Assembly (NCBI GenBank): GCA_937872895.1
Contig: CALMUP010000008.1
Coordinates: forward strand, 1 to 64,000
Direction of reading: 5' to 3'
DNA length: 64,000 nucleotides
From: an uncultured Verrucomicrobiota bacterium
Lineage (GTDB): Bacteria; Verrucomicrobiota; Kiritimatiellia; CAIVKH01
A program made the translations under genes and the position numbers. Below the pieces are notes generated by a model. The model made no database searches. It was not told the DNA's origin and saw nothing but the letters and a program-made list of their open reading frames with translations. This document shows positions 1 to 49,924 of the stretch, one piece after another (position 1 is the first letter of the stretch; the number at the start of each line of letters is the position of its first letter).

Positions 1-479
1 ATCTGCATGCCGCCCACGCCCAGGTAGGGGATGATCGCGACCACCAGCACGAGAATGCCCATGCCGCCGAGGAAGTGCGTGACCGCGCGCCAGAGCAGGA
101 TGGCCCGGCTGTGCGCCTCGAGGTTGCTCATCACCGACGCCCCGGTGGTGGTCAAACCCGAAGCCGCCTCGAAAAATGAATCGAACAGGCTGTTCATCGC
201 GCCGGTTAGGTGGAACGGCAGGCAGCTCAGCAAGGTCGCCGTCACCCAGCCGAACACGACGATGCCGATGCCTTCCCGGCGCGAGAGTTCCACGGTCGTA
301 CGCGTGAACACCCACATCGCGCCACCGATCACCAGCGTGATGCCGGCCGAGGCGAGCATGCCCTGCCAGGCCTGGTCCGGATCGTCCATGAGATACGAAA
401 CCGCCGCGACTACACCCATGAACAGGGACAGGATCATCACGAGGAACGAGACCAGATGGAAGACGATCTTGAATTTCAT
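1..479 (-). CDS. trkH: TrkH-type potassium uptake membrane subunit (5' part only)
   Basis: Translating the minus strand from an ATG at 479 gives about 159 residues with no stop before the window edge, so the C-terminal two thirds are outside. The fragment has several hydrophobic segments and a selectivity-filter-like motif, TTTGASV, followed by a re-entrant and membrane-helix pattern (WRAVTHFLGGMGILV) typical of TrkH/KtrB. TrkH forms the K+ channel of the Trk system in the inner membrane. Its start lies 10 bases downstream of the trkA stop, so trkA and trkH form one minus-strand operon. The family call is strong; nothing can be said about the missing part. Confidence 0.93.
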   Translation of the reverse strand, partial: MKFKIVFHLVSFLVMILSLFMGVVAAVSYLMDDPDQAWQGMLASAGITLVIGGAMWVFTRTTVELSRREGIGIVVFGWVTATLLSCLPFHLTGAMNSLFDSFFEAASGLTTTGASVMSNLEAHSRAILLWRAVTHFLGGMGILVLVVAIIPYLGVGGMQ

Positions 480-489
480 GGAAGACCCG

Positions 490-1839
490 TCAGGCCCCGA
501 ACAGGTGTTCGATCTTCGCCACCGCCTTGGGTAGTGCATACAGGACGATCCGGTCACCCGCCTGCAGGGCCAGGTCGCCGGTGGCGGGCAGCAGGATATC
601 CGAGCGCAGTACGGTGGCGATCAGCAAGCCGTCGGGAACCCTGAGGCTGCGGATCGAACGCCCCGCCCACGGATGCGAAGCGGAGAGCAGGACCTCGAGC
701 ATCTCGCCCGGCAACCGGTGCAGCATCGCCGCCGCGCGCACGTTCTTGCCGCGCACAAAGTGCAGGATCGCGTTGATCATTGAGATGTGCGAACTGACCG
801 CGCGGTCGAGCAGGCTCAGGCTGCCGATGATCGGCACGTAGTCGGGCTTGGCGACCTGGGCCACGGTGAAGGTCGCGCCCGACTTCTCGCCGAGCAGGCA
901 GATCATGATGTTGGTCTCGTCGTCACCGGTGACCGCGACAAAAGCCGTGTCCTTCACGATGTCCGCATTGCCAAGTGTTTCCTGGCTGAGCGAATCACCG
1001 TGCAGCACGGTCGCGCGGTTGAGTTCCTCCGCGCACAATTCGGCGCGGCGCAGGTCCTTCTCAATGACCGTGACCTTGGTGTTGATCCGGTCAAGCCGCC
1101 TCGCCAGTTCTAGGCCGAGGTCGCCGCCGCCCGCAATGACGATCTTGTTGAACGCCGTGTGCTCGGGACAGGCCCACTCGAGGAACGCCATGACATCCTC
1201 GGGTGATCCGACCAGGTACAGCTCGTCACCGATCATGAACTGCGTGTCCCCGTTCGGGATCATCACCTTCTCGCCGCGCATCATCGCGATGAACCGAACC
1301 CGTTCAATGAGCTCCGGCTTGGGAAACTGCTTCAACGGTTGCAGGATGATCGGACTGTCCATGTGCGCCCGGATACCCACCACAAGCGCACGCTGGTTGA
1401 GCAGGTCGATCGCCTCGATCGTGCCCGGCATGCGCAGGATGGTGAAGATCTCGTCCGCGCATTCCTCTTTCTCGCTGACCACCAGGTCGATGCCCAGCCG
1501 CTTGATGTCGTAGCCCGATTCCGTCCCGTAGTGCCGGCAACTCGTCACCCGCGCCACCTTCATCGGCACCCCGGCAAGGTTGGCAAACGCACAGGCCAGG
1601 ATGTTGACCTCGTCCCGGTTGGTCACCGCCACCAGCAGGTCGGCCTTCCGCACCCCGGCTTCCTCAAGGACCGCCGGACTGGTTCCTTCCCCCTCGACCG
1701 TCTGGATGTCGACCGAGGCCTGAACCAACGCCAGCTTGTCGGCGTCGCGGTCCACCACGACGATGTCGTGCTGTTCACTGCTCAACCGCTCAGCCAGGTT
1801 CTTGCCGGCATTGCCCGCACCTATGATGACAATTCGCAT
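490..1839 (-). CDS. trkA: Trk system potassium uptake protein TrkA
   Basis: This is a 449-residue cytoplasmic protein, the usual length for a two-lobed TrkA. Two NAD-binding RCK lobes are visible, each with a glycine motif: GAGNAGKNLAERL at the very N-terminus and AGGGDLGLELARRL near residue 235. Each is followed by a TrkA_C-type domain. TrkA gates the TrkH channel in response to nucleotides. An in-frame extension runs upstream to 2043, but the glycine-rich strand begins right after the ATG at 1839, so that start is chosen. The next gene downstream is trkH, 10 bases away. Confidence 0.95.
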   Translation of the reverse strand: MRIVIIGAGNAGKNLAERLSSEQHDIVVVDRDADKLALVQASVDIQTVEGEGTSPAVLEEAGVRKADLLVAVTNRDEVNILACAFANLAGVPMKVARVTSCRHYGTESGYDIKRLGIDLVVSEKEECADEIFTILRMPGTIEAIDLLNQRALVVGIRAHMDSPIILQPLKQFPKPELIERVRFIAMMRGEKVMIPNGDTQFMIGDELYLVGSPEDVMAFLEWACPEHTAFNKIVIAGGGDLGLELARRLDRINTKVTVIEKDLRRAELCAEELNRATVLHGDSLSQETLGNADIVKDTAFVAVTGDDETNIMICLLGEKSGATFTVAQVAKPDYVPIIGSLSLLDRAVSSHISMINAILHFVRGKNVRAAAMLHRLPGEMLEVLLSASHPWAGRSIRSLRVPDGLLIATVLRSDILLPATGDLALQAGDRIVLYALPKAVAKIEHLFGA

Positions 1840-2102
1840 GAAAGTATCCCGCCAGCACCGAGGCCAGCTCGTTTGAAACAACCAGTATGGAGGATACCGC
1901 CCCCCCATGACAACCGTGCAGCGGGTTTTTGCGTCGGATGCGTGGGTTATGCCTTGATAACAAACGGATTGCGAAAGTGTTATTTTTGCGCTATCCGGTT
2001 CATGCCTTGTCCCGCGGTGGTGTAAATCCTTTACAAGGAACATGATGCGACGATGTGTGATGGGGCTTGCCGTGCCGGGTGGCTCTGGTGTTGGATGAGG
2101 TT

Positions 2103-2867
2103 ATGCGAAAGAGCTTCTGCATGTGGTTGGTACTTGTTGGCTGGGGTGGTCTGGTGATGGCGTTTGACCATCAGCATTCGGTCTGGACCGAATGGCTCGC
2201 TCGCACCGTGGATGATCAGGGCAGGGTGGACTATCTGGTTGCCGTAGCAGACCAGGACCGCTTGAACCGATACCTTGCCGAACTCTCCGCCGTGTCCCCC
2301 GACCAGTACCGGTCCTGGACCCGCAACCAGCAACTGGCCACGTTGCTGAACCTTTTCAATGCCAGCACAATCGGCCTGGTCGTGCGGAACGAACCAATCA
2401 CGTCGATCAAGGACATCGGCACCTTGCTGCGCGGTCCATGGGAACAGCCTGCGGTGTTATGGTTCGGTCGCCGCACCACCTTGAGCGCCTTGCACCACCA
2501 GATGATCGTTCCGTTGTTCAACGACGACCGGGTCGCCTTCGCCCTCAGCCGCGCTGCCGTTTCGTCGCCGCCGCTTCGCCGCGAAGCCTACGTCGCCGAT
2601 CGCCTCGACGCACAACTGGACGACCAGCGCCGACGCTTCCTCGCCGATCCCGCCTTCAACCGCATCGGCCCCGACCTCGCAACCTGGCACCTCTCCGAAC
2701 TGTTCCAGTGGGAAGCCGCCTCGATCCTCCGCACCACCGCCGATCCCGCCGCGTACATCACCCACGCCCTCGGCATGACCATGCCCGAGCCGCCCCCGCG
2801 CATCGCCTTCCGCCCCTTCAACTGGTCGCTCAACCGCCAGCCGGTTGCCGAAAAGGAACACCCATGA
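2103..2867 (+). CDS. exported DUF547-family protein
   Basis: The protein has 254 residues if it starts at the ATG at 2103, which follows a GGATGAGG stretch with rather short spacing. The first ~20 residues look like a Sec signal peptide (basic start, WLVLVGWGGLVMA core). The rest matches DUF547: an N-terminal LLNLFNAS segment, SIKDI, a HHQMIV segment and SSPPLRREAY followed by LDAQLDDQRRRFL. In members I know, the SPPLR block is normally preceded by a cysteine (CPPL); here the text is SSPPLR, so that residue is a serine. The biochemical role of DUF547 is not established. The stop overlaps the start of the ankyrin gene (ATGA), so the two are translationally coupled. A weak promoter candidate, TTGATA with an 18-base spacer to TGTTAT, lies at 1954-1983. 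Confidence 0.8.
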   Translation: MRKSFCMWLVLVGWGGLVMAFDHQHSVWTEWLARTVDDQGRVDYLVAVADQDRLNRYLAELSAVSPDQYRSWTRNQQLATLLNLFNASTIGLVVRNEPITSIKDIGTLLRGPWEQPAVLWFGRRTTLSALHHQMIVPLFNDDRVAFALSRAAVSSPPLRREAYVADRLDAQLDDQRRRFLADPAFNRIGPDLATWHLSELFQWEAASILRTTADPAAYITHALGMTMPEPPPRIAFRPFNWSLNRQPVAEKEHP

Positions 2868-4921
2868 ACGACCTCCTCGGGTTCGCCATGCCGATCCGCT
2901 GGCTGCTCCTGATCGTCCTGTCGTTTTCCCTGCCGGTTATGGCCGAACCCCGCACCCGTGGTTTTACGCCGCTGATGAAGGCCGCATGGGAAGACGATCA
3001 AGCCACCGCGCGACGGTTGCTGGAGGAAGGGGCTCCGGTCGATGCCTATTCCTCCTCCGGCATGAATGCGCTGCATGTCGCTGCACACCGCAACCACCTG
3101 GTCATGATGGCACTGTTGCACGAACACGGGGCGGACCTGAATGCCACCATGCGCAACCGGATCAGCGCCGTAGCGGCCGCCGCAGCTGCCGGCCGGATTG
3201 ACGTAGTGGAGTGGTTGCTTGATCGCGGCGCGAATATCCAGGCGCGCGACCGGTGGGGATTCACGCCCCTGCACCGCGCGGCCATGCGCGATCATGTAGA
3301 GGTTGTCCAGAGCTTGATCGCCCGCGGTGCCGACCTCCGGGCCGAGGAACAGCGCGGACTCACCCCGTTGATGCTCGCCGCCGGGGAGGGGTCGCTCGGC
3401 GCCGTGGCCGCGTTGATCGAAGGCGGCAGTATGGTCAATGTCATCAATGCCAACGGCCAGGCGGCCATTAGCTATGCCATCCTTCGCTTCAATCCCGATA
3501 TCGCCGATTACCTGGCCGACCACGGTGCCGACCTCGACGTGGTCAACCGCAAGGGTGAAACCCTCGTTGATATCGCCTTGCGTCAACCGGATGGCCTGGC
3601 GGCGTTGACGTGGCTGCTTGACCGGGGCTTCGACGTCAACCGCGTGGGGTGGAAACAGGAGTCGCCACTCCACATCGCCATCCAGCGCAACCACATGGAG
3701 GCCATTGACCTGTTGCTTGCCCGTGGCGCATCGCTCACGGCAACCAACAGCCATGACAACACGCCACTTGTGGTGGCCATTAACGGGAAAAATCCTGCTA
3801 TCGTACAACGGTTGCTCGCCGCCGGCGCGGATGTCGAATTACCGGTGAGAGGCATGACCCCGTTGATGGTGGCTGCCACCCACGCCGATGCCCGTATCGT
3901 CGAACTGCTGCTCGATGCCGGTGCCGACCCGGTCCGAACCAATCATCTCGGGCATGGCACCTTCGAATGGGCGCTGGCCTATTCCAACTTGCCCGTGGTT
4001 TCACTGCTGCTCGAACGAAATGTCGATCCGGAGGCGCATCCCGATGACGACTGGCCGGCGATCATGAGCGCCGCCTGGGGCAATCACGAAGACGCTCTGT
4101 TCGAACTGATCGCCCATGGCGCAGATCCCGATCGTCGACGGTTGGTTGGACAAACCCCGTTGATGATCGCCGTGCGCCGCGGTTATTCCAGCCTGGTGTA
4201 CCGGCTGCTCGACCACGGGGTCGACACGGGCGTGCGCAACGACGATGGCCACACCGCCTGGCATATCGCCGCCTACCTCGATCGCCACGAACTGGCCGAC
4301 CGGTTGTCCGGGTACATGGACCCGGAGGACTTCGCACCCACCAACCGCATCCGGTGCTACCTCGATCTGGACGCCCCGCTGGCCACCAATGTGCAGGTCG
4401 CTGGCAATTTCAACGAATGGGACGGGTCACGGCACCCGATGACCAAGCGGGACGATGATGGCTGGTGGTATGTCGAGTTCGACTACTTCCCCGGAACCTT
4501 CACCTACAAGTTCATCATCGACGGTGCCTGGGTGACGGATCCGGCCCATCGGACCACCCGAACCGGAGGCGACAACAGCGTGCTGGATTCCGCCGACCGG
4601 ATCGTCGGCACACGGCCCGAACGACCCGCCTCGCGTGCCGATATGCTGGTGCCCGTGACCTTTACCTTCCACGCCCGCGATGCCTTTGCCGTTTCCCTCG
4701 CCGGTGAGTTCAACGGATGGAGCACCGCCTCCCATCCAATGTCCCTCGCGCGGATCGGTCGCTGGGAGACGACCCTGTTCCTCAAGCCGGGCGACTATGG
4801 ATACAAGTTCGTCGTGGACGGGCGATGGTTGCTTGATCCTTCCAACCATCAGATGCACGTGGTTTCAGGCGTCACCAATTCCTTGCTGCAGGTCCTGCCG
4901 CCATCTGGCCCACCGCCTTGA
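2864..4921 (+). CDS. exported ankyrin-repeat protein with two C-terminal CBM48/AMPK-type glycogen-binding domains
   Basis: The protein has 685 residues, with a good ribosome site (AAGGAA) before the ATG at 2864. The N-terminus has a signal peptide ([16 protein letters not shown]). About 14 ankyrin repeats follow at roughly residues 28-485, recognisable as TPLMxAA and LLxxGAD blocks. Two tandem early-set domains of the AMPK/CBM48 type close the protein at about 485-570 and 595-680. They carry [10 protein letters not shown] and LAGEFNGWS, then FxYKFxxDGxWxxDP in each. Ankyrin repeats bind proteins and CBM48 modules bind alpha-glucans, so this may be a periplasmic protein-binding scaffold that also touches a glucan. 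The function is inferred only. It overlaps the DUF547 gene by 4 bases. Confidence 0.85.
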
Positions 4922-4989
4922 CCCATCCGATTTTGCCCACTTGCACCAAGCTCCCGCACAAGGTACGTTGGCCGCCACGGAGTAACTTT

Positions 4990-6069
4990 ATGTCGAGTAC
5001 GTTTGGAACCATCTTCCGGGTCAGCACGTTTGGCGAGTCGCACTGCAAGGGCGTCGGCGCCATCGTGGATGGCTGTCCCGCCAACATCCCGCTTACCGAG
5101 GCGGACATCCAGCCGCAACTGGACCGCCGCCGCCCCGGCCAGAGCAAGGTCGCCACCGCGCGCGCCGAAAGCGACACCGTGACCATCCTCTCCGGCACCG
5201 AACACGGCATCACCCTCGGCACCCCCATCGGACTGTTCGTGCCCAACAAGGACCAGCGTCCCGGCGACTACCAGGAGATGAACCAGATCCCGCGTCCGTC
5301 CCACGCCGACTACACCTACCAGATGAAGTACGGCGTGCGCGCCTCCAGCGGCGGTGGCCGTTCCAGCGCACGCGAGACCATCGGACGCGTCGCCGCCGGC
5401 GCGATCGCGGAAAAAATTCTCCGCCTGAAATTCGGCACGGAGATCGTGGCCTGGGTCAGCTCGGTCGGCACCATCGACAGCGAGGTGGATGCCGCATCGC
5501 TGACCCGCGACATCGTCGATGGCACGATGGTGCGCTGCCCCGACCTCCGTGCCTCCGCGCGCATGGAGGACGCCATCGTCGCCGCCAAGAACGCCGGCGA
5601 CTCCCTCGGCGGCGTGGTCACCTGCATCTGCCGCAACCTCCCGGCGGGGTGGGGCGAACCGGTGTTCGACAAACTCGAGGCCAAACTCGCCCACGCCATG
5701 TTGTCCATCCCCGCGACCAAGGGCTTCGAGATCGGCTCCGGATTCAGCGGCACCCGCCTGCCCGGCAGCCAGCACAACGACCCGTTCGTCAAGCGCGGCG
5801 ACCGCCTCGGCACCGTCACCAACCACAGCGGCGGCATCCAGGGGGGCATCTCCAACGGCGAACCGATCGTCTTCCGCATCGCCTTCAAACCCCCGGCCAC
5901 GATCAGCCGCGCCCAGCCCACCGTCACCTTCGACGGCGAACCGGTTGTGCTCGAGGCGAAGGGTCGCCACGACCCCTGCGTCGTGCCCCGCGCCATCCCG
6001 ATCGTCGAGGCCATGGCCGCGCTCGTGCTTGCCGATGCCGCGATGCGCCAGCACGCCCGCACCCTCTGA
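4990..6069 (+). CDS. aroC: chorismate synthase
   Basis: AroC converts 5-enolpyruvylshikimate-3-phosphate to chorismate using reduced FMN, the last step of the shikimate pathway. The 359-residue protein begins [21 protein letters not shown], the classic AroC N-terminus, behind GGAG at 4979-4982. Further family signatures are [19 protein letters not shown] and the C-terminal [12 protein letters not shown] longer in-frame reading from 4918 is rejected because family similarity starts at 4990. aroB of the same pathway lies at 33636. It is the first gene of the aroC-rsmD-coaD-yceD-rpmF-plsX-fab run. Confidence 0.97.
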
Positions 6070-6078
6070 GGCACCGCG

Positions 6079-6648
6079 ATGGTCCGCATCACCGGAGGCC
6101 TGCACCGCGGCCGCAACCTGCGCGTTCCCCCCGCCGGGGTCCGCCCGACCAAGGACATGGTCCGGCTCGCCTTGTTCTCCGCCCTTGGCGATTCCATCAC
6201 GGGCAAGCGGGTGATCGACCTCTTCGCCGGCTCCGGGGTCATCGGCCTCGATGCGATCAGCCGTGGCGCCGCCGAGGCGGTCTGGATCGAGGCCGATCCG
6301 CGCACCCACGCCATCCTCCGCGAAAACGTCGCGCTGATCTGCGGTCCGGAAATCGCCGCCCGCGCCTGCATCGCCGCCGATGCCTTCGCCTGGCTCGCCT
6401 CGTCGCGACCGCCCGAGGGCTTCGACCTCCTCGTCGCCGATCCCCCGTACCGCCCGGCCGATAATCTCCCGTGGGGCGAACGCCTGCTCACCGCCCTCGG
6501 CCCGAGCGCCCGGCTCAAGCCCGACGGTCTTTTCGTGCTCGAGCAGCACGCCGATCAACCGGTAGTCGACAACCCCGCGTGGAATAGATTAAAAGAAGCC
6601 CGCTACGGCGAGACCCGGTTGGTCTATTACCGCCGCGTGGAAACGTAA
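6079..6648 (+). CDS. rsmD: 16S rRNA (guanine-N2)-methyltransferase RsmD
   Basis: The protein has 189 residues, the expected size. It opens with RITGGLHRGRNLRVPP and RPTKDMVRLALF, and has the SAM-binding motif VIDLFAGSGVIGLDAISRGA and the catalytic DPPY motif near residue 120. RsmD methylates G966 (E. coli numbering) of 16S rRNA. It lies 9 bases after aroC and 13 bases before coaD. The rsmD-coaD pairing is common in bacteria and supports the call. Confidence 0.95.
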   Translation: MVRITGGLHRGRNLRVPPAGVRPTKDMVRLALFSALGDSITGKRVIDLFAGSGVIGLDAISRGAAEAVWIEADPRTHAILRENVALICGPEIAARACIAADAFAWLASSRPPEGFDLLVADPPYRPADNLPWGERLLTALGPSARLKPDGLFVLEQHADQPVVDNPAWNRLKEARYGETRLVYYRRVET

Positions 6649-6661
6649 AGGAGCAGGCGCA

Positions 6662-7156
6662 ATGAAACGGGCAGCCATATATCCAGGGACCTTCGACCCG
6701 ATCACCCTCGGCCACCTCGATGTGATGAGCCGCGCCGCCCTGGTCTTCGACCGGCTGGTTGTAGCCGTCGCCGAGAGCCCGCGCAAGAAACTCTGGTTCG
6801 ATCTTCCCGAACGCCTCTCCATGGTCCGCGACGCCACCGCCAAACTTGCCAACATCGAGGTCATCTCCTTCGATGGCCTGCTCGTCGAGTTCGCCCGCCG
6901 CCAGGGCATCGGTATCCTCGTGCGCGGCCTGCGCGCCTTTTCCGATTTCGAGTACGAATTCCAGATGGCCCTCAGCAACCGCAAGCTCGCCCCCGATGTC
7001 GAGACCGTGTTCCTGATGGCCTCCGACACCTACAGCTACGTGAGCTCCAGCGTCGTGCGCGAAGTCGCCGAGCTCGGCGGCGACATCTCCGTCCTCGTAC
7101 CGCCCGGCGTCCAGAATGCCCTCGAACGCAAACGCGCCTCCCGCCAAGCCACCTGA
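6662..7156 (+). CDS. coaD: phosphopantetheine adenylyltransferase
   Basis: CoaD transfers AMP from ATP to 4'-phosphopantetheine, the penultimate step of coenzyme A synthesis. The 164-residue protein shows the nucleotidyltransferase start AIYPGTFDPITLGHLD, the LVRGLRAFSDFEYE block and the C-terminal SYVSSSVVRE motif. AAAGGAG precedes the ATG with good spacing. The location just before fatty-acid genes is sensible, because CoA supplies the phosphopantetheine arm for acyl carrier protein. Confidence 0.97.
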   Translation: MKRAAIYPGTFDPITLGHLDVMSRAALVFDRLVVAVAESPRKKLWFDLPERLSMVRDATAKLANIEVISFDGLLVEFARRQGIGILVRGLRAFSDFEYEFQMALSNRKLAPDVETVFLMASDTYSYVSSSVVREVAELGGDISVLVPPGVQNALERKRASRQAT

Positions 7157-7188
7157 ACCCGTCCCGATCCGCCGTGGAGAAACCGTCC

Positions 7189-7650
7189 ATGTTCATCGAA
7201 ATCGCCAAGCTGCCCCCCGATGGCGGCCCCATCCAGGCCGAGGTTCCGGGCGAACTGCTCGCCCTCGAAAACGACAAGTTCGCCCATGCCGACGGCCCTA
7301 TCCAGGTCGATCTATTCGCCTATGTCGTTTCCCACGAGCTGATTGTCAAAGGCACCCTCAAGGCCCCGGTCAAGCTGCTCTGCGGCCGCTGCGCCGAATT
7401 TTTCTCGACATTCCTGACCGTTTCGTCTTTCCTTCGCGCTTACCCGATTTCCGAGGGGGTCGACAAAGTCGATCTCTCCGAGGACATCCGCGAGGATATT
7501 TTGGTGGAAATACCCACCTATCCCGCTTGTCCGTGGAAGGGGGAGGGCGTGTGTCCCTTCTCCGGGGTCGACCTGGACGAGATGAAGCGGTATGAGCGCC
7601 CTCCGGAGGACAATCCGTGGGGGATCCTGGATAACCTGGATCGCAAGTAA
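7189..7650 (+). CDS. yceD: YceD/DUF177 family protein (23S rRNA accumulation factor)
   Basis: A 153-residue protein. A GTG at 7174 would add five residues, but GGAG at 7176-7179 sits nine bases before the ATG at 7189, so the ATG is preferred. DUF177 features include the CGRCAEFF cysteine pair near residue 65 and a C-terminal half with a second cysteine pair, CPWKGEGVCPFSG, ending in NPWGILDNL. In bacteria and plants this family is needed for normal 23S rRNA levels, and its gene nearly always precedes rpmF, as here. The position therefore strengthens a call that sequence alone makes moderately well. Confidence 0.88.
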   Translation: MFIEIAKLPPDGGPIQAEVPGELLALENDKFAHADGPIQVDLFAYVVSHELIVKGTLKAPVKLLCGRCAEFFSTFLTVSSFLRAYPISEGVDKVDLSEDIREDILVEIPTYPACPWKGEGVCPFSGVDLDEMKRYERPPEDNPWGILDNLDRK

Positions 7651-7686
7651 CCGTTTGGCATGCATTGATGTAGCGAGGTAACAACT

Positions 7687-7872
7687 ATGGCAGTACCAAA
7701 GAGACGTGTTTCGCGGATGAAGCGCCGCCAGCGCCAGGCATCCCACAAGAAGGATTATCCGAACGCCGCCGAGGACAAGCAGGGCGGCGGGCTGCACATG
7801 CCGCACCGGGTCAACCCGGAAACCGGCATGTACCGCGGCCGTCAGGTCCTGACCATCAAGTCCGACGACTGA
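7687..7872 (+). CDS. rpmF: 50S ribosomal protein L32
   Basis: A 61-residue basic protein beginning MAVPKRRVSRMKRRQRQASH, the standard L32 start, with the conserved PHRVNPETGMYRGRQVL block in the C-terminal half. The two CxxC zinc-binding pairs found in many L32 proteins are absent, making this a zinc-independent (C-minus) form. GAGG lies ahead of the ATG. It is placed between yceD and plsX, the order seen in many bacteria; plsX begins four bases after its stop. Confidence 0.96.
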   Translation: MAVPKRRVSRMKRRQRQASHKKDYPNAAEDKQGGGLHMPHRVNPETGMYRGRQVLTIKSDD

Positions 7873-7876
7873 TGAC

Positions 7877-8884
7877 ATGCGCATTGCCGTTGATGCCATG
7901 GGCGGCGATTTCGCCCCTCGTGAGATCGTCGCCGGCGCGGTCCGTGCGGCTCGCACGCTGACCAACATCAAGACCCTGTTTCTCGTCGGCAACCAGCAGG
8001 CCATCGAAGCCGAGCTGGCCAAGCACGGCCCGACCCCGTCGAACATCGACATCCGCCACGCCTCCGAGGTCGTGGGGATGGACGAGTCGCCGGCCATCGC
8101 CGTGCGCCGCAAGAAGGACTCCTCGATCGCCCGTTCGGTGGAACTGGTGAAGACCGGCGAGGCCGATGCGGTCTTTTCCGCCGGCAGCACCGGTGCCGCC
8201 GTGGCCTCCAGCCAGTTGCGCCTCCGCACCCTCGAAGGCGTGACCCGCCCCGGCATCGCTACCGTGTTCCCGTCGCCGACCAAGCCGTTCGTGCTGATCG
8301 ACGCCGGGGCCACCACCGACTGCTCCCCCGACATCCTGCTCCAGTTCGCCGCGATGGGCACCGTCTATTCGCGCCACATCCTCGGCGTCGACAAGCCGAA
8401 GGTCGGCCTGATGAGCATCGGCGAGGAGGACGCGAAGGGTAACGAGACCACCAAGGAAACCTTCGGCCTGCTCGAGAAGAGCCACCTGAATTTCGCCGGC
8501 AACATCGAGGGCCATGACCTGTTCGAAGGCGACATCGATGTCGTCGTCTGCGACGGGTTCGTCGGCAATGTGATCCTGAAGACCAGCGAAAGCGTCGGCC
8601 ACGCCATCAGCACCTGGTTGAAGAAGGAATTCACCGCCAACCCGGTCCGCATCCTCGGCGCGTTGCTGCTGCGCGGCGCGCTGAAATCGTTCAAGCGGAA
8701 GATCGATCCCGAGACCTACGGCGGCGCCCCGCTGCTCGGCGTCAACGGTATCTGCTATATCGGCCATGGTTCGTCCTCGTCCGTCGCCGCCTACAACGGC
8801 ATCCGCTCCGCCACCGAGGCGCTGCGCCACGACATTAACCACCTGATCGTGGAGGAAATCAAACGCCTCCACGCCTCGCCATGA
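7877..8884 (+). CDS. plsX: phosphate acyltransferase PlsX
   Basis: PlsX makes acyl-phosphate from acyl-ACP for phospholipid synthesis. The 335-residue protein starts MRIAVDAMGGDFAP, a hallmark of the family, and carries SAGSTGA, IGEEDAKGNE and VCDGFVGNV. The length matches known PlsX proteins. It starts four bases after rpmF and its stop overlaps the fabH start by four bases, so expression is probably coupled to the fatty-acid genes. Confidence 0.97.
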   Translation: MRIAVDAMGGDFAPREIVAGAVRAARTLTNIKTLFLVGNQQAIEAELAKHGPTPSNIDIRHASEVVGMDESPAIAVRRKKDSSIARSVELVKTGEADAVFSAGSTGAAVASSQLRLRTLEGVTRPGIATVFPSPTKPFVLIDAGATTDCSPDILLQFAAMGTVYSRHILGVDKPKVGLMSIGEEDAKGNETTKETFGLLEKSHLNFAGNIEGHDLFEGDIDVVVCDGFVGNVILKTSESVGHAISTWLKKEFTANPVRILGALLLRGALKSFKRKIDPETYGGAPLLGVNGICYIGHGSSSSVAAYNGIRSATEALRHDINHLIVEEIKRLHASP

Positions 8885-9924
8885 ATCCAACGCTTGCCGG
8901 TAAACTGAAGGCCCCCCCCGCGCGGCCGGTCCGTCCCGTCGCCATCACCGGAACCGGCTCCTACGTGCCGCAACGCGTGATGACCAACGCCGACCTCGAG
9001 AAGATCGTGGAGACCACCGACCAGTGGATCCAGGAACGCACCGGCATCCGCGAACGCCGCATCGCCAACGACCAGGAAACCACCTCGTTCATGGCCGCCG
9101 AAGCCGCCCGCCGCGCCATGGCCGCCGCCGGCGTGACCGCCGAACAGATCGACCTGATCATCGTCGCCACCATCACCCCCGACATGGTGTTCCCGAACAC
9201 CGCGTGTTTCGTGCAGGACCAGATCGGCGCGAAGAACGCGTTCTGCTTCGACCTCGAAGCCGCCTGCTCCGGGTTCCTCTATTCGCTCGACGTGGCCAAG
9301 CAGTTCATCGCCAACGGCACCTACGAGACCGCCCTGGTCATCGGCGCCGAGAAGATCAGCACCATCACCGACTGGTCCGACCGCTCCCTCTGCGTCCTGT
9401 TCGGCGACGCCGCCGGTGCCGCCATCGTCCAGGCCGCGAAGCCGGGGCAGGGGCACGGCCTGATCCACTCTGTGCTGCGCTCCGACGGCAGCCTGGCCGA
9501 CCTGCTCAAGCTCCCCGCCGGTGGCAGCCGCTTCCCGGCCAGCGAGGAGACCCTGAAGCAGAAGCTGCACTACATGAAGATGGACGGCCGCGAGGTGTTC
9601 AAGCACGCCGTCACCTGCATGATCAGCGCCGCCCGCCAGACCCTCGAGGAGACCGGGCTCGACGTCGCCGACCTCACCCTGATCATCCCGCACCAGGCCA
9701 ACATGCGCATCATCAAGGCCATCAGCGACCGCCTCGGCGGCGAGTCATCCCAGTACTTCGTCAACCTCGACCGCTACGGCAATACCTCCGCCGCCTCGGT
9801 CATCGTGGCCCTCGACGAAGCCTGCCGCAGCGGCCGCCTGAAACAGGGCGACCTCGTCCTGCTCGTCGCCTTCGGCGGCGGTTTCGTCTGGGGCGCCAGC
9901 CTGCTCGAATGGAGCCTGCCATGA
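8881..9924 (+). CDS. fabH: beta-ketoacyl-ACP synthase III
   Basis: FabH starts fatty-acid synthesis by condensing acetyl-CoA with malonyl-ACP. The 347-residue protein has the full Cys-His-Asn triad in context: the cysteine in DLEAACSGFLY, the histidine in IPHQANMRII and the asparagine in DRYGNTSAAS. The N-terminus is about 20 residues longer than the shortest homologues (a proline/alanine-rich leader before VAITGTGSYVP). It overlaps plsX and fabD by four bases at each end. Confidence 0.97.
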   Translation: MNPTLAGKLKAPPARPVRPVAITGTGSYVPQRVMTNADLEKIVETTDQWIQERTGIRERRIANDQETTSFMAAEAARRAMAAAGVTAEQIDLIIVATITPDMVFPNTACFVQDQIGAKNAFCFDLEAACSGFLYSLDVAKQFIANGTYETALVIGAEKISTITDWSDRSLCVLFGDAAGAAIVQAAKPGQGHGLIHSVLRSDGSLADLLKLPAGGSRFPASEETLKQKLHYMKMDGREVFKHAVTCMISAARQTLEETGLDVADLTLIIPHQANMRIIKAISDRLGGESSQYFVNLDRYGNTSAASVIVALDEACRSGRLKQGDLVLLVAFGGGFVWGASLLEWSLP

Positions 9925-25105: not shown

Positions 25106-28100
25106 CTAGGGCTGGGGGGCCATCCGTACGCCGACGCGCAGGAACAGGATGGGTTCGCTGTTGGTGAAGGAGAAGGTGACGGCAGCGCCGGTACCGGTGC
25201 GGGTCTGGCTGGTCTCGGTCCAGGTGCCGGTGACATTGAGGTCGGGTTTCCACTGGAGGGTGTAGATGCGGCCGGTCGCGGTGACCGGGACACGACAGTC
25301 TCCTGTCCCGTCGGCTATGTCGGGGAGGGCGATGGCGAGGAAGGACAGGGCATTGGTGGGATCGGTACCGGCGATGAATTCGTCAAGGTTGACGACGCCA
25401 TCGCCGTCGCTGTCGGCGCCCGGAAGGGCCGGGGTCGGTGCGGCAAAATGCTGCGTTTCCCACAGATCGGGGAGCCCATCGCCATCGCGGTCGGGGTCGC
25501 ACGGGTCGCCGATTCCGTCCCCGTCCAGGTCTTCCTGTCCGGGGTTGGCGAGGTTGGGGCAGTTGTCGACAGGATCGGGTATGCCGTCGCCATCGGTATC
25601 CGGCGGCGGCAGGCAGATCACACACGGCACGGAGACATCATCGACCTGCCAGTAGTTCTCCTGGTACGCGTTGTAGAAGTGGAAGCGGATGACCGCGTTG
25701 GATGCGCCCGCGAACGGAGTGAGGTCGAGGGAGAAGGTCCCGCTGGCATCGGCGGTGCGGCGCCAGAGGTTGCTCCACGGTCCGGAAGTACCGTTGACGC
25801 TGACATCCACATCGGCGACTTCGTTGCTGCGTGCGGTGCGGTAGTCGAAAAAGGTGCGGAATACCAGGCTCGCCTGCTGGGCAAAGCGCAGGTTGAGGGG
25901 GGGCGTGCGGAGTTGGGTGGCCAGTTGCAGGTTCCGGGAGTGAAGGGAGCTTTCGACGATGGCAAATGGTCCCGACCCTCCGGTGCGGTTTCCGCGGAAT
26001 ACCGGGTCGTCAAAGCGCCACCCTTGGCTGACTTGACCGTTGGTGGTGATGGCCCATCCGGCGGGTAGGCCGGTGGTGAAGGCGGCACTGACCAGCGTGG
26101 TGGCGATGAGGGTGCCGGTGCAGGGATCGCAGGCGTCGCCGATCCCGTCGCCATCGCTGTCTCGCTGGTTGACGTTCGGTACGGTGGGGCAGTTGTCGGC
26201 GAGGTCGGGGACGCCGTCGGTATCGCTGTCCTGCTCGCACAGGTCGCCAACCCCGTTGTTGTTGGCGTCGGTCTGGGCGGGGTTGGGGAAGTCCGGGCAG
26301 TTGTCGAGCGCATTGTCGATCCCGTCGCCATCGCGGTCGGAATCACAGGCATCACCGAGGCCGTCGCCGTCTAGATCGGCTTGCCCGGGATTGGGGATCA
26401 GAGGACAGTTGTCGGTTGTGTCCGGTATCCCGTCGCCATCATCGTCCGGATCACAGGCATTGCCGAGGCCGTCCAGGTCGGTATCGGTCTGGGCGGGATC
26501 ATGCACGGCGGGACACAGGTCGTCGTCGTTGTCGATGCCATCGCCGTCGAGGTCCTCGTCACAGGCATCGCCGATCCCGTCGGCATCGAGATCGGATTGC
26601 AGGGCGTTGGTGGCGAAGGGGCAGTTGTCGGCGAGGTCGGGGATGCCGTCGTTGTCGCGGTCGGGATCGCAGGCGTCACCGATGCCATCGCCATCGAGGT
26701 CGGATTGGGTCGGGTTGAACACGGTGGGGCAGTTGTCCATGTTGTCGGGGAAGCTGTCGAGATCCTGGTCGCCGATGGCGGTGGCGGCGATGCGGATCAC
26801 GCCGGAGGTCTGCCCGATGTTGATGGCGCCAGGTGTTGGGTTCGCCCGCAGCCAGCCGGTGCCGGGATCGCCGAGCACATCATTGGGGGCCTGGTGGGTC
26901 AGGTCGGTCGTGTTGGCGGTGAGCAGGTGGAGGAAGTTGTTTTCGGTCGGGGCGATGTTGGTGAACACGGTGCCCGGGTCATCGAGGGGCATGTCGCCGG
27001 CGCCACCCCAGGCGATCGCATCGACGATGTTGCTGGCGGGGTCGTACAGGACCAGTCCGTCCGGTCCGTTCTGCATGGTGCCGGGGATGATGAAGAGATC
27101 GATGTTGGCGACGGTCAGGCTGTTGTTGGTGACGAGGACGCAGAAGCCGAGCGGGCGGCCCTGGTCGTCGCGAATTCCGTCATCCGGTAACACGAACGAG
27201 GGAAACGTAACACTCCAGATGGGATCATCCCCGGTGTTGGCCCCGTCGTGATGCACGATCCGGTAGCCGGCGAGGTTCAGGCCGGCGGGGCCGATCACCT
27301 CGATGAATTCCTGGTCATCGGAGCTGCTGTCGTCCGGCTCGACCTCGTTGAAGCGGGGTTGGACGGTGCCGGGGGCGACGGGCGGCAGCGGAAAGGTGTA
27401 GGTGGCGGGGGTGGAGGTGACCGGCGTGGCGCCGGGGCCGGAGAAGGTGGCGGTGACCTGCCAGGTCCACGTGTCGCCGGCGGACGCATCGGGGTTGAAC
27501 GGAGCGGTTTCCCAGCTGCCATTGGTGGCGAGGGACAGGGTCTGGGTGAGGGTGGGGCCCCCGTTCAGCGACCAGGTGGCAACGGCCGCGAGGTTGGAGG
27601 CGGTGCCGTTGGGTACGATGGCGGCGGTGATGCGCACGGACTGGCCGGTGGCGGGGGCGGCGGGGATGGTGGCGGTGGACTGGAAGAAGACGCTGGCGGC
27701 GTTGCAGGCGGCGTGGTCGCCGGGGGTGGCGAGGGCGGCCGGAGCTTTGCTCCATTCGATCGCGGACCACGGGTTGATCGGATCGCTCACCCCGGCGATT
27801 CGCTGAACACGGCTGGTGGCGAAGGCCCAGATCATCGAGAAGTCGGCCGGACCGTTCGGTTCACCGATCACGCCATACAAATCGGTGATGCGGTTGTCGG
27901 CGTTGCGGAGGGCTACGACGTCGTTCCCGTCCAAGGCAAGCAGGTTCGTATTCACGAGATGGGGGGTGCGGCCGGTAAACACGGATGTAAAGGCGTTGGA
28001 TTGGGCAGCGATGACCATGGAACTGCCGGCGCCGAGGGTGCCGGCGATGGGAATTTGCACGGGGTCGCTGCCATTCAGGTAAAGCACCACGGCGTGGTTG

Positions 28101-29188
28101 GTGAAGGTGAGGGAGGCGGTGCCGGAGTTGTGCAGTTCAATGTAGGATGCGCCGGGGGTCGGGTGGGCAACGATTTCACTCAGAAGCAGAACCGGGTTCA
28201 CGCAAGCCAGGGCATCAATCAGGTGGAAGTCGGTAAACACCAGGTAATGATCGGAGGCGCTCGCGCTGGTGGTTGCGGGAAGCGGTGGGCCGAATTTGGG
28301 AAGACCGCCGATGCCATCATCGCGGATCGAGTTGTACACTTCGCCCGCCGGAGCGCCATAGGGATTTTCGCGGATGTCCTGGCTGAGCAAGAGGTAGTCG
28401 AGGCGTCCGCCGCTGGTGTAGGTGCTGGTATTCGTGGTGTCCTCCTGCACGGCAGTCACGGGGAGCAGTCCGGCAGGGAGGAAGCGGTCGGTCGGGAACA
28501 GGCGGTAGGCAACCGGGAACTGCACATCGGAGCCCAGTTGGTACGAGGTGGGGAGTCCGGAGGGTTGGTTGGTGAATGCGGCGGTCTGGCTGTTGGCGAC
28601 ATCCTCGTTGAAGTCGCCGATGATCGCGTATTCGGTATCGAGCGGATTGTTTTCAATGTAGGCGACCAGGTTGGACAGGACGCGTCGTCCTTCGATGGCG
28701 CGGCGGAATTGGTTGGCGCTGCCGGAGCTGGCCTTGTGGTGCACGGTGTAAACCGCGAATGGATTCAGTGCGCCGGGGATGTCGATGACCACACGGAGTG
28801 GGTAGCGTGTCAGTTCGGTTGCGCCGGGAAATTCTGTGACCTCGGTGGCGGAGCGGATCGGGTAGCGACTGAAGAAGCCGAGGCGTTGTGAGCCGGTGAG
28901 GGGTCCGGCACTCGTGCCATAGGCAAGGTAAGGGTACCCGAGATCGGCGGCAAGGGTTACCCAATTGTCATGGTCACTGTTCAGCAATTCCTGAAAACCA
29001 ATCACATCGGCATTCACCCGTTGCAGGATGCTGCGCACGGCAAGGTAGTCGTTGCTGCCGGGGGTGCCAACGCCGAACAGGACGTTGTAGGTGGCCAGGC
29101 GAACCTGGATGGCAGGGCTCACGCAGGGCCAAAGCATGGCCATGGCGAGAATCCCCCAGCCGATCGAGCGTCCCCACAAACGCGGCAT
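25106..29188 (-). CDS. large secreted protein: endonuclease/exonuclease/phosphatase domain, lamin-tail domains, thrombospondin type-3 repeats
   Basis: A 1360-residue protein with a signal peptide (GWGILAMAMLWPCVSPA). The nuclease-fold domain at ~26-330 has RLATYNVLFG, IGFQEL, TVHHKAS, IIGDFNED and SDHYLVF, so the expected Asn, Glu, His and Asp residues are present. Lamin-tail-like domains follow at ~336-453 (LLLSEIVAHP) and ~614-736 (FNEVEPDD). Six calcium-type thrombospondin-3 repeats (DGDGIxDxxDNCP) lie at ~823-1026, then a jelly-roll-like domain, one more repeat at ~1196-1236 and a short beta C-terminus. An extracellular, calcium-stabilised DNase or phosphoesterase is likely. The start has no ribosome site (CCCCCT before ATG). 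The gene stands alone, convergent with rng. Confidence 0.88.
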   Translation of the reverse strand: MPRLWGRSIGWGILAMAMLWPCVSPAIQVRLATYNVLFGVGTPGSNDYLAVRSILQRVNADVIGFQELLNSDHDNWVTLAADLGYPYLAYGTSAGPLTGSQRLGFFSRYPIRSATEVTEFPGATELTRYPLRVVIDIPGALNPFAVYTVHHKASSGSANQFRRAIEGRRVLSNLVAYIENNPLDTEYAIIGDFNEDVANSQTAAFTNQPSGLPTSYQLGSDVQFPVAYRLFPTDRFLPAGLLPVTAVQEDTTNTSTYTSGGRLDYLLLSQDIRENPYGAPAGEVYNSIRDDGIGGLPKFGPPLPATTSASASDHYLVFTDFHLIDALACVNPVLLLSEIVAHPTPGASYIELHNSGTASLTFTNHAVVLYLNGSDPVQIPIAGTLGAGSSMVIAAQSNAFTSVFTGRTPHLVNTNLLALDGNDVVALRNADNRITDLYGVIGEPNGPADFSMIWAFATSRVQRIAGVSDPINPWSAIEWSKAPAALATPGDHAACNAASVFFQSTATIPAAPATGQSVRITAAIVPNGTASNLAAVATWSLNGGPTLTQTLSLATNGSWETAPFNPDASAGDTWTWQVTATFSGPGATPVTSTPATYTFPLPPVAPGTVQPRFNEVEPDDSSSDDQEFIEVIGPAGLNLAGYRIVHHDGANTGDDPIWSVTFPSFVLPDDGIRDDQGRPLGFCVLVTNNSLTVANIDLFIIPGTMQNGPDGLVLYDPASNIVDAIAWGGAGDMPLDDPGTVFTNIAPTENNFLHLLTANTTDLTHQAPNDVLGDPGTGWLRANPTPGAINIGQTSGVIRIAATAIGDQDLDSFPDNMDNCPTVFNPTQSDLDGDGIGDACDPDRDNDGIPDLADNCPFATNALQSDLDADGIGDACDEDLDGDGIDNDDDLCPAVHDPAQTDTDLDGLGNACDPDDDGDGIPDTTDNCPLIPNPGQADLDGDGLGDACDSDRDGDGIDNALDNCPDFPNPAQTDANNNGVGDLCEQDSDTDGVPDLADNCPTVPNVNQRDSDGDGIGDACDPCTGTLIATTLVSAAFTTGLPAGWAITTNGQVSQGWRFDDPVFRGNRTGGSGPFAIVESSLHSRNLQLATQLRTPPLNLRFAQQASLVFRTFFDYRTARSNEVADVDVSVNGTSGPWSNLWRRTADASGTFSLDLTPFAGASNAVIRFHFYNAYQENYWQVDDVSVPCVICLPPPDTDGDGIPDPVDNCPNLANPGQEDLDGDGIGDPCDPDRDGDGLPDLWETQHFAAPTPALPGADSDGDGVVNLDEFIAGTDPTNALSFLAIALPDIADGTGDCRVPVTATGRIYTLQWKPDLNVTGTWTETSQTRTGTGAAVTFSFTNSEPILFLRVGVRMAPQP

Positions 29189-29566
29189 AGGGGGCAAAGT
29201 ATACCCGGGTTGACGTGGTGTGTGAATACTCGATGCGCGGTAGATCCCGCTGATCCTGGACGGGATCCGGGTCCGATCCACCGCGATCACCGATCCCGGC
29301 TACAGGGACGACCCTCGAACCCGTAATCGTCCGGCGGGATTATGAGCAGGATTAGGATTACGAGTACGAACGACATCCGTGGTCATTGCCCGCCGAAGGT
29401 GTGGCCCTCACCGCGTACCCGATCCTGATCCGGCACACGTTCCGCCTCCGGCGAACATCGCCGGAGCTACAGGAATCGGGAATAGCCCCGGATAACCAGG
29501 GCGCAGGGACGACACCCGACACCCGAACAACGCCACCTGGCCGGGCAGGCTTGTCGCGCGGGGTGT
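29189..29566. other. 378-base intergenic stretch with dispersed repeats
   Basis: No gene is seen. It should contain the promoter of the large secreted protein; TATACT lies just before that gene's start on the minus strand, too close for a normal leader. It also holds repeat fragments: a GGATTACGAGTACGA-type element near 29337-29370, a GCCCGCCGAAGG fragment at about 29389, and a perfect palindrome at 29446-29466 followed by CTACAGGA. Confidence 0.6.
29446..29474. repeat. palindromic CTCCGGCGA repeat with CTACAGGA tail
   Basis: CTCCGGCGA and TCGCCGGAG form a perfect 9-bp inverted repeat around ACA, followed by CTACAGGA. A diverged copy in the opposite orientation occurs at 55977-56007 (TCCTGTAG, then a TTCCGG/CCGGAA palindrome). 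Both are intergenic, which points to a dispersed genomic repeat family. Confidence 0.65.
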
Positions 29567-47426: not shown

Positions 47427-47608
47427 TGAACCATACGCTGAAGTGGTGTGAAGTCCAGCGGGAATTCGGTCAGGAATGTGTTTGGTGGCCTCCGGCATGC
47501 CTTCCGGTGTGGTCGGCCGTCAGAAAGATGAAGGCCACGACATGGTTGCGTTGCCCGGTAAAATCAAGTAAAAGCGGCGGCTTACATTGATCTAGGGAGA
47601 ACCAACGC

Positions 47609-49873
47609 ATGAACCACGAGACCATTGCCGTGACGGCCCAGCAGCACCGGAACAGGACCTTGCTTGAAGATACCCGTTACTGTGGCAACAGCTTCACTTC
47701 CAAGGCATTGCCTTTCAAGTTGGACCTGGCCGGGTCCCCCGCGCTGACCCCGGAACAACTGGTAGTGTTGGAGGCGTTGCAGCGCCGGGCCGCCCGCATC
47801 GCCGTGACCGCGGTCGCTGAACTCTCGAAGCTGAACGAGGTGGACCACATGGGCGGCGGGTTGGACCTGATTCCTTCGCTCGCCCTGACCCTGGCAGTGA
47901 CCGACTACGGCGCGGTGGAGTACACCATCGAGAACGCCCACGCGAGTGTCGGGTACTATGGCCTGCTGTCCGCCCTGGGCCACCTGGATCCCGACCATGT
48001 CGCCGCGAAGTTCCGCCAGAGCCTCGATATCGCCGGCCATGTCTCCTGGGTTCCCGGCGGCACCCAGCTCAACGGCGGCCGCCTCGGGGTGATGATCCCG
48101 GTCGCGGTCGGCCAGGCCATCGGCAAACGCGCCCGCTACGGGCAGGATGCCTGGGTGATCTGCCATTGCGGCGATGCGGGCTGGATTTCCGGCCAGGCCC
48201 TGAACGGCTTCAACGCGGCCGACCTGCACCACGCCCCGATTACCTTCGTCATGCAGCGCAACGGCATCCAGTTGTCCGGCTCGAACAAGCAGATCATGGA
48301 CAAGGATCCGCGCAAGATCATCGAGGCGCTCGGCATCACCATCATCGAGATCCCGTCGCTCCACGACGCCGCCAGCCTCTACCAGGCCTACCGCGAGGCG
48401 CGCCAGCTCGCCCGCTCGGGTCGCCCGAGCATGATCTACCCGGTCGGCTTCCACAATGTCGGCTCGCACAAGGAGACCCTCTCCTCGTTCGCCGAGCGCT
48501 ACGGCATCGTGGCGGAAACCACCGCCTATGCCGCGAAGAACAAGGTCGCGATGGATACCCCGGTGTGGACCCCCGGCGCCCTGATGAGCTTCCGCGACAT
48601 CGAGTGCATGCTGGACTGCCTCTTCCTGGTGAACCAGCTCCCCGGCGGCAAGGGCCACCACGATGGCCACATGAAAGGCCGCGACCTGCAGGCGCTGCTG
48701 GCGAATCCGATGATGACCGAGTCGGCCGAGCACCGTAAGGCCCTGGCCGACCTGGCCGCGCAAGCGCCCCTGGCCGTGGTCACCGCGGCCCGCCCGTCCC
48801 CCGGATCGCCGAACCTGCTGTTTCCCGATGCCGCGGCCGCCGCGGTGAAGCTCCCCGCCGTGGGTGAGGTAGTCAGCCCGCGCGCCGGCGTCTCCCCCGC
48901 CTATGCCGAAGTGGCGAAAGCCCATCCGGACAAGGTCTTCGTGCTCAGCTGCGACCTCGATCCCTCGACCAAGCTCGACAAGGCCGCCTCGCTGGTGGCG
49001 AAGGGCAACCATATCGAGCTTAGCATCCAGGAACAGATCGCCACCCTGATGGCCAACGGCATCGCCATGTCCGGTCCCGATCCCCGCCTCGTCGTGTTCT
49101 CGACCTTTGCCGCGTTCTTCGAGGGCATCGCCCGCGAAGGCATGGAGATGTGGCGGTACCAGCGCAACCTGAATGGCGCGAACGAGGGATTGAACGTGAC
49201 CTTCCACATGTCCCACGTTGGCGGGTGCACCGGACGCGACCACTTCACCGGCTGGTCGCTCGACTGGATCACCCTGGCCATGGGCTACCTGCCGTACCTG
49301 CACCGCTTCTACGCCCCGGCCGACGCCCGCGCCGCGTTCATCGCGATCCGCGACCTCGCCGCGCATTACGGCGGTCACCTGATCGGCATCCCGCGCGACA
49401 ACCTCCCGATCCTCGCGAAGCAGGGCACGAACGAACCGCTGTGGCAGGCCACCGATGCCTGGCAGCCGGTCACCACCTACCGCACCTACAACGGCGCCAC
49501 CAAGGCGATCCTCGTCATCGGTGCCCCGGCCCATCTGGCGGGCGAGGCCGCTGACACGCTGCACACCCAGGGCCACGCCGTCGATGTCCATATCATCAAT
49601 GGCCTCCCGGTCGGGCAGGACATCATGACCACGCTGCTGGCGAAGTATCCGGCCGGTGTCGTCACCGTCGAGGATGGCATCATCGGCACCCGCGCGGTCG
49701 GGTTGCGCGGTTTCGCAAGCCTCGTCGCCGGACACGCCGCCGCCCTGAAGATCCCCGCCGCCCACATCGGCATCACCGACCCGCGTATCGCCCCGTCGGA
49801 AGGGCACTACGAGGTCTGGGCCCATTTCGGTATCACCAGGGACGCGATCGTCGAGGACGTGCGCGCGCTCTAA
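47609..49873 (+). CDS. divergent transketolase-like thiamine-diphosphate enzyme
   Basis: A 754-residue protein of the transketolase fold, but not close to textbook transketolases. The N-terminal domain has a thiamine-diphosphate/metal motif near residue 188 (GDAGWISGQALN, with NGIQLSG about 30 residues later). The pyrimidine domain at ~430-620 has the expected activating glutamate in LSIQEQIATLMANG. A C-terminal domain follows with VTVEDGIIGTRAVG. The likely chemistry is two-carbon ketol transfer. It shares direction with gnd 51 bases downstream, which points to the pentose-phosphate pathway. A phosphoketolase was considered and rejected because its signatures are missing. GGGAGAA precedes the ATG. 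Confidence 0.75.
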   Translation: MNHETIAVTAQQHRNRTLLEDTRYCGNSFTSKALPFKLDLAGSPALTPEQLVVLEALQRRAARIAVTAVAELSKLNEVDHMGGGLDLIPSLALTLAVTDYGAVEYTIENAHASVGYYGLLSALGHLDPDHVAAKFRQSLDIAGHVSWVPGGTQLNGGRLGVMIPVAVGQAIGKRARYGQDAWVICHCGDAGWISGQALNGFNAADLHHAPITFVMQRNGIQLSGSNKQIMDKDPRKIIEALGITIIEIPSLHDAASLYQAYREARQLARSGRPSMIYPVGFHNVGSHKETLSSFAERYGIVAETTAYAAKNKVAMDTPVWTPGALMSFRDIECMLDCLFLVNQLPGGKGHHDGHMKGRDLQALLANPMMTESAEHRKALADLAAQAPLAVVTAARPSPGSPNLLFPDAAAAAVKLPAVGEVVSPRAGVSPAYAEVAKAHPDKVFVLSCDLDPSTKLDKAASLVAKGNHIELSIQEQIATLMANGIAMSGPDPRLVVFSTFAAFFEGIAREGMEMWRYQRNLNGANEGLNVTFHMSHVGGCTGRDHFTGWSLDWITLAMGYLPYLHRFYAPADARAAFIAIRDLAAHYGGHLIGIPRDNLPILAKQGTNEPLWQATDAWQPVTTYRTYNGATKAILVIGAPAHLAGEAADTLHTQGHAVDVHIINGLPVGQDIMTTLLAKYPAGVVTVEDGIIGTRAVGLRGFASLVAGHAAALKIPAAHIGITDPRIAPSEGHYEVWAHFGITRDAIVEDVRAL

Positions 49874-49924
49874 ACGAACCCTCGGTTCCCGCACCATCAA
49901 CCCGCCACAGCAGGAAAAAGGATT

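Follow-up and report, generated by a model that had tools for sequence, protein, structure and literature searches.

Organization of the gene pair

The locus raises the question of whether two adjoining genes, one for a DUF547 protein and the other for an ankyrin-repeat protein with two CBM48 domains, serve a common function outside the cytoplasm. The genes are located in the window, which denotes the whole stretch of 64,000 nucleotides that was analyzed, and derive from the genome designated G000 (3.87 Mb in 51 contigs) in which there is only one DUF547 gene. The features of the region are as follows.

490 to 1841, reverse strand: divergent neighbor, which from its sequence we take to be a TrkA-like potassium uptake protein; start picked by eye
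2103 to 2867, forward strand: ORF for the DUF547 protein, 254 aa; export judged by eye, with a Pfam match and an AlphaFold2 model
2864 to 2867, forward strand: ATGA overlap in the sequence, the start of the second gene lying inside the stop of the first
2864 to 4921, forward strand: ankyrin protein of 685 aa with 14 repeats (residues about 32-490) and two CBM48/AMPK1_CBM domains; export judged by eye
4337 to 4620 (approximate limits), forward strand: first CBM48 domain; retains the Trp (NEW), Lys (YKF) and Trp (GAW)
4649 to 4897, forward strand: second CBM48/AMPK1_CBM domain; retains the Trp (NGW), Lys (YKF), Trp (GRW) and Asn (TNS)
4990 to 6069, forward strand: neighbor, from its sequence presumably chorismate synthase AroC, with RsmD-like and CoaD-like genes after it

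The initial annotation described positions 2103-4921 as a pair of signal-peptide genes with an ATGA overlap. The coordinates and the overlap are right, and by eye the N-termini of both proteins are hydrophobic, end in VMA and resemble signal peptides. A Shine-Dalgarno-like AAGGAA is positioned 5 bases ahead of the ATG of the ankyrin gene. The GC content by codon position is of the coding type, with GC3 values of 0.80 and 0.76 for the DUF547 and ankyrin genes, respectively, which supports both genes as coding. The first ORF matched Pfam DUF547 (PF04784) with an E-value of 2e-15 and 57.3 bits compared to a curated cut-off of 27. The second matched Ank_2 (E 3.9e-93), CBM_48 (E 7.4e-19) and, in two stretches, AMPK1_CBM (E 2.8e-23; 82.3 bits compared to a curated cut-off of 26.8). 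Scoring against a generic ankyrin consensus placed 12 repeats in a 33-residue register, and in the gaps two weaker repeats, with starts near residues 230 and 461, can be made out by eye. The total of ~14 repeats and the two CBM48-type domains proposed originally were both recovered in this way. The DUF547 and ankyrin proteins are likely to be co-translated, and translational coupling through the ATGA would give their co-expression.

The pairing was seen in one genome

The DUF547 protein was searched for in 193 related genomes and was present in 31, G000 included. No ankyrin or CBM48 ORF resembling that of the window was evident at the 35 other DUF547 loci in these genomes, the surroundings of which extended at least 1 kb downstream in 33 of the 35 cases and at least 400 bases in all. 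For the named genomes, the 80 best of 285 loci were read with as much as 6 kb of flanking DNA per side; no ankyrin ORF was near DUF547, and a single CBM48 ORF (L190, Opitutaceae) was ~5 kb away on the opposite strand. Reading of the DNA beside the six other ankyrin-CBM48 genes revealed no DUF547 ORF (0/6), one of these loci (L065) being cut upstream by a contig end; the same-genome paralog that is the closest relative of the ankyrin gene is among those with no DUF547 gene beside it. The genus-mate G001 possesses both families on different contigs, and its DUF547 gene is on a 3-kb contig with no ankyrin start in the 467 bases after the gene. Conservation of the pair across genomes, which the initial annotation had made a check on its proposal, was rejected on these counts, and the pair was seen in G000 alone.

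The aroC-rsmD-coaD order is retained in G001 with the pair absent upstream. Genes that we take from their sequences to be purM-like, purH-like and peptidase-like precede aroC there, and trkA is on another contig, by which the pair as a local ancestral order was rejected. The gene arrangement is lineage-specific, any joint function of the DUF547 and ankyrin proteins is not conserved, and the overlap would point to co-expression alone. The reading that we favor, with a confidence that is evenly poised between belief and doubt, is that an exported ankyrin scaffold, predicted to be anchored to alpha-glucan, stands beside a lineage-specific DUF547 protein that is putatively inactivated and descended from a presumed redox protein.

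Ankyrin proteins with two CBM48 domains are rare

A profile of the last repeat and both CBM domains was used to search 345 genomes of the class for the architecture of the ankyrin protein. Seven genes with ankyrin repeats and a double CBM48 were present in five of the 345 genomes (two each in G000 and G060, and one each in G001, G104 and G017), and no further examples emerged from a search of 387 genomes across the phylum. The combination is a rare architecture, and no paper on ankyrin repeats with CBM48 in bacteria was recognized among the titles and opening parts of abstracts in the literature. By being joined to a double CBM48, protein-binding repeats would be placed on starch or glycogen in an extracytoplasmic setting. 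The tree built from all seven proteins shows the same-genome paralog P0003 (contig C23) and P0004 from G001 as orthologs with 55% identity, and the ankyrin protein of the window as sister to this pair with 37-38% identity. The G001 assembly, which is 92% complete, yielded no ortholog of the ankyrin gene of the window. For P0002, folding with no alignment as input gave a poor model (mean pLDDT 52.1), which was left unused.

The neighborhoods of the ankyrin-CBM48 genes differ among loci. When the neighbors at the six other loci and in the window were compared by blastp, the shared non-ankyrin genes were mainly those of L065 and L067, which are orthologous f8 loci; one further f8 gene was shared with L066, and one PPIase-like match linked L064 with L066. 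A set of shared neighbors was rejected as the overlap is mainly between the two orthologous loci, and no common Pfam family was present among ten neighbors that were scanned. At L065:8309-10755 the ankyrin-CBM48 gene of G060 occupies two frames that overlap. Its relative from G104, with 78% identity, is a single frame, and the split in G060 reflects either a frameshift or an assembly error.

The CBM48 domains retain residues for glucan binding

The glycogen-binding domain of the AMPK beta subunit (PF16561; PDB 1z0n, 1z0m) belongs to the same domain family as the CBM48 domains of the ankyrin protein. Equivalents of AMPK-beta W100, K126 and W133 are kept in both domains, as gauged by alignment to the AMPK-beta structures (1z0n) for domain 2 and by sequence alignment for domain 1. 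In the second CBM48, all seven family members share the Trp100, Lys126 and Trp133 equivalents and the Asn in the final loop. In the first, the Lys and the second Trp are invariant in 7/7, and the first Trp is a Tyr in two members. Passages of an AMPK study describe these Trp and Lys residues as contacting sugar and report that mutated contact residues reduce glycogen binding (PMC2642990). The aromatic residues for glucan binding, whose absence the initial annotation had named as counting against its proposal, are present, with Trp, Lys and Trp kept in both domains. The arrangement differs from AMPK beta in that two copies of the domain lie in tandem, carried by an ankyrin protein that is exported and lacks a kinase.

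The alternative that the CBM48 domains bind no glucan, and serve only in packing or protein binding like the early-set domains of many enzymes, is a distinctly improbable one. CBM48-type early-set domains are indeed widespread in the phylum, with some match in 175 of 387 genomes and many in proteins of ~100 aa, but the AMPK-type Trp, Lys and Trp are kept in both domains of the window protein and G000 is rich in genes of the alpha-amylase family. This genome has 31 matches to PF00128, 17 of them at E ≤ 1e-8, in which some matches are pieces of one gene and some sit in open frames of 2000-3000 codons; it has 16 AMPK1_CBM matches also. The alpha-amylase count was rejected as a marker of ankyrin-CBM48 carriers because relatives without the architecture can be as rich (PF00128 matches: G004, 15; G005, 13; G007, 15; G030, 16). 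Since other relatives are poor in such matches (G011, 0; G008, 1), the alpha-amylase richness is a setting for the ankyrin protein rather than a specific link.

In the favored explanation of an alpha-glucan-anchored scaffold, the two CBM48 domains would hold glycogen or starch and the 14-repeat solenoid would hold a protein partner, possibly an enzyme of the alpha-amylase family, of which G000 has many. Proteins of the AnkB kind are periplasmic ankyrin proteins and resemble the window protein in having ankyrin repeats outside the cytoplasm. We know of no CBM48 domains in proteins of this kind, and, as a further difference from them, no catalase gene was noticed at the window locus.

Other exported-looking proteins with CBM48-type domains are encoded at L069:3568-7347 (G000, contig C13), L070 and L072. 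The CBM48-type domains at L069 and L072 are followed by a very long uncharacterized C-terminal part, and a shorter version without this part is present in G007.

The DUF547 protein has lost six near-invariant residues

The DUF547 protein of the window (P0001) was compared with 62 relatives from named genomes. Six residues that are near-invariant among the relatives are altered in P0001: Y85 to F, E131 to H, H145 to A, C150 to R, C155 to S and D207 to S. Residues Y85, E131, H145 and D207 each are conserved in 62/62 relatives, and C150 and C155 each in 61/62, with a bias at the second cysteine where the scan pattern allowed C, S or A. The DUF547 protein of G001 is the sole one of the 62 relatives without the Cys pair and keeps the other four residues. 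As judged from its sequence, the DUF547 protein of the window is degenerate.

The AlphaFold2 model of the protein, built from 63 sequences, has a mean pLDDT of 92.9 and a pTM of 0.88. There was no sequence relative in the PDB at E ≤ 1e-3 and no Foldseek match for the model at E ≤ 0.001 (best 1.6), and the best VIA-align Z was 4.9. Assignment of the fold from solved structures was rejected as there was no PDB or Foldseek match, which is not proof of a new fold. The function of DUF547 was not apparent from titles and the opening parts of abstracts in the literature, which yielded nothing on DUF547 with cysteine and periplasmic.

The DUF547 gene conceivably is decaying, with a position before the ankyrin gene that arose by chance and the ankyrin gene alone being useful. 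This explanation is unlikely, albeit the least so of the alternatives, and draws on the loss of all of the conserved polar residues, on a long end branch in the tree (1.39 vs. 0.75) and on rapid divergence: identity to the G001 counterpart is 49% for DUF547 compared to 88% for AroC and 74% for TrkA. However, the frame is intact with an export signal, a coding-type GC3 and a confident fold, and the G001 copy retains four of the six residues.

Another explanation is a periplasmic complex in which the DUF547 protein is the partner of the solenoid and is placed on glucan by the CBM48 domains; DUF547 would have lost its ancestral residues because of having become a structural or regulatory subunit. 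The ATGA coupling and the good ribosome site that goes with it, the export of both proteins as judged by eye, the intact ORF with its well-folding model, and the change of all six polar residues, as expected in a repurposed protein, are each in keeping with such a complex. The pair nevertheless is present in no other genome examined, the closest ankyrin paralog, also encoded in G000, lacks a DUF547 gene beside it, and the DUF547 gene of G000 is its only one. The complex appears somewhat less probable again than decay of the gene. From the periplasmic complex proposed in the initial annotation, the exported appearance of both proteins and the CBM48 aromatics have stood, but the pairing is not conserved and there is no sign that the ankyrin protein holds DUF547. 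A more specific version, rated lower still, is that DUF547, having been deprived of its thiol/acid/His site, now serves as a client or clamp of the exported ankyrin scaffold on alpha-glucan. If true, it would be a newly assembled, lineage-specific glucan-surface complex built from a retired redox protein.

DUF547 genes frequently neighbor VTT and FAD oxidoreductase genes

The VTT (TVP38-type) and FAD disulfide oxidoreductase proteins of one relative were used as probes of DUF547 neighborhoods. Both were near DUF547 at 35 of the 80 named-genome loci (best 80 of 285), and at least one was near at 43 of the 80. A plasmid record of Catenovulum adriaticum annotates DUF547 adjoining a bifunctional TVP38/TMEM64-FAD oxidoreductase, and, according to passages of a DedA survey, membrane proteins of this type occur fused to PF07992/PF02852 oxidoreductases (PMC10127716). 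Among 35 loci of the class, VTT was within 6 kb of 14/26 Cys-bearing and 0/9 Cys-less DUF547 genes (Fisher p 0.005), and the oxidoreductase was nearby in 11/26 and 1/9 cases, respectively (p 0.12). The tree implies three changes in the Cys trait, the association having about three independent losses behind it, and a tree-respecting pairwise test had no power (2-3 pairs, p 1). As there are only three trait changes and 2-3 pairs for this test, the association between the Cys pair and VTT is a lead that is not significant when the tree is respected.

P0001 belongs to the DUF547 family by its Pfam score and groups with canonical members in a supported set of eight (96/94), together with G004, G001, G036 and four G6PD-linked copies. 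Unlike the DUF547-VTT/TVP38-FAD oxidoreductase set, it is without the near-invariant residues at all six positions, and neither a VTT nor an oxidoreductase gene accompanies it in positions 1-9500 of the window, in which the contig starts at base 1 and 2.1 kb are upstream of the gene. VTT matches of the strength of DUF547-linked proteins (about 100-114 bits) are present in G004, G063 and G040, and scores elsewhere are at most 66 bits in G000 and G001 and 81-82 bits in G005 and G007. G004, which is in the same bacterial family, has kept the Cys pair and the gene order DUF547, VTT, oxidoreductase, G6PD; loss of the Cys pair and the cluster therefore is not family-wide.

A Cys-less DUF547 gene abuts G6PD in G002, G005, G006 and G007 (L090, L093, L227 and L236). 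A link between Cys-less DUF547 and G6PD was rejected as the four genomes constitute one supported clade, P0001 is not by G6PD, and G004 keeps the cysteines. At L087 there is a 4-base overlap between a Cys-bearing DUF547 gene and a gene of the 6-phosphogluconolactonase-like type.

Because of the conserved E/H/Cys-Cys/D set and the frequent VTT/TVP38 and FAD oxidoreductase neighbors, the ancestral DUF547 protein probably acted, after export, in a thiol/redox step together with the VTT and oxidoreductase membrane pair; it is the gene neighborhood and conserved Cys pair alone that point to redox chemistry. The comparison offers a first testable idea, an exported Cys pair acting with a VTT/TVP38 protein and an FAD disulfide oxidoreductase, for which the DUF547 protein of the window would be a natural loss-of-site case. 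In the favored explanation of a scaffold beside an inactivated DUF547 protein, the VTT-oxidoreductase setting would have been lost in the lineage and the Cys pair with it, the site being gone in this genus and all six residues in G000, and the DUF547 gene ahead of the ankyrin gene would be a relict. Against its being a relict, the ORF has stayed intact and coding-like, and its product is predicted to have a good fold. As this exceeds the needs of a dead relict, the DUF547 protein may have acquired a new function.

Elsewhere in the window, positions 25106-29290 on the reverse strand encode a protein of 1394 aa in which an endonuclease/exonuclease/phosphatase domain is accompanied by a lamin-tail domain and by thrombospondin type 3 repeats. 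At positions 47582-50485, long ORFs of opposite strands cover the same DNA (reverse, 967 aa; forward, 754 aa), the forward one matching a transketolase/E1-type dehydrogenase in Pfam.
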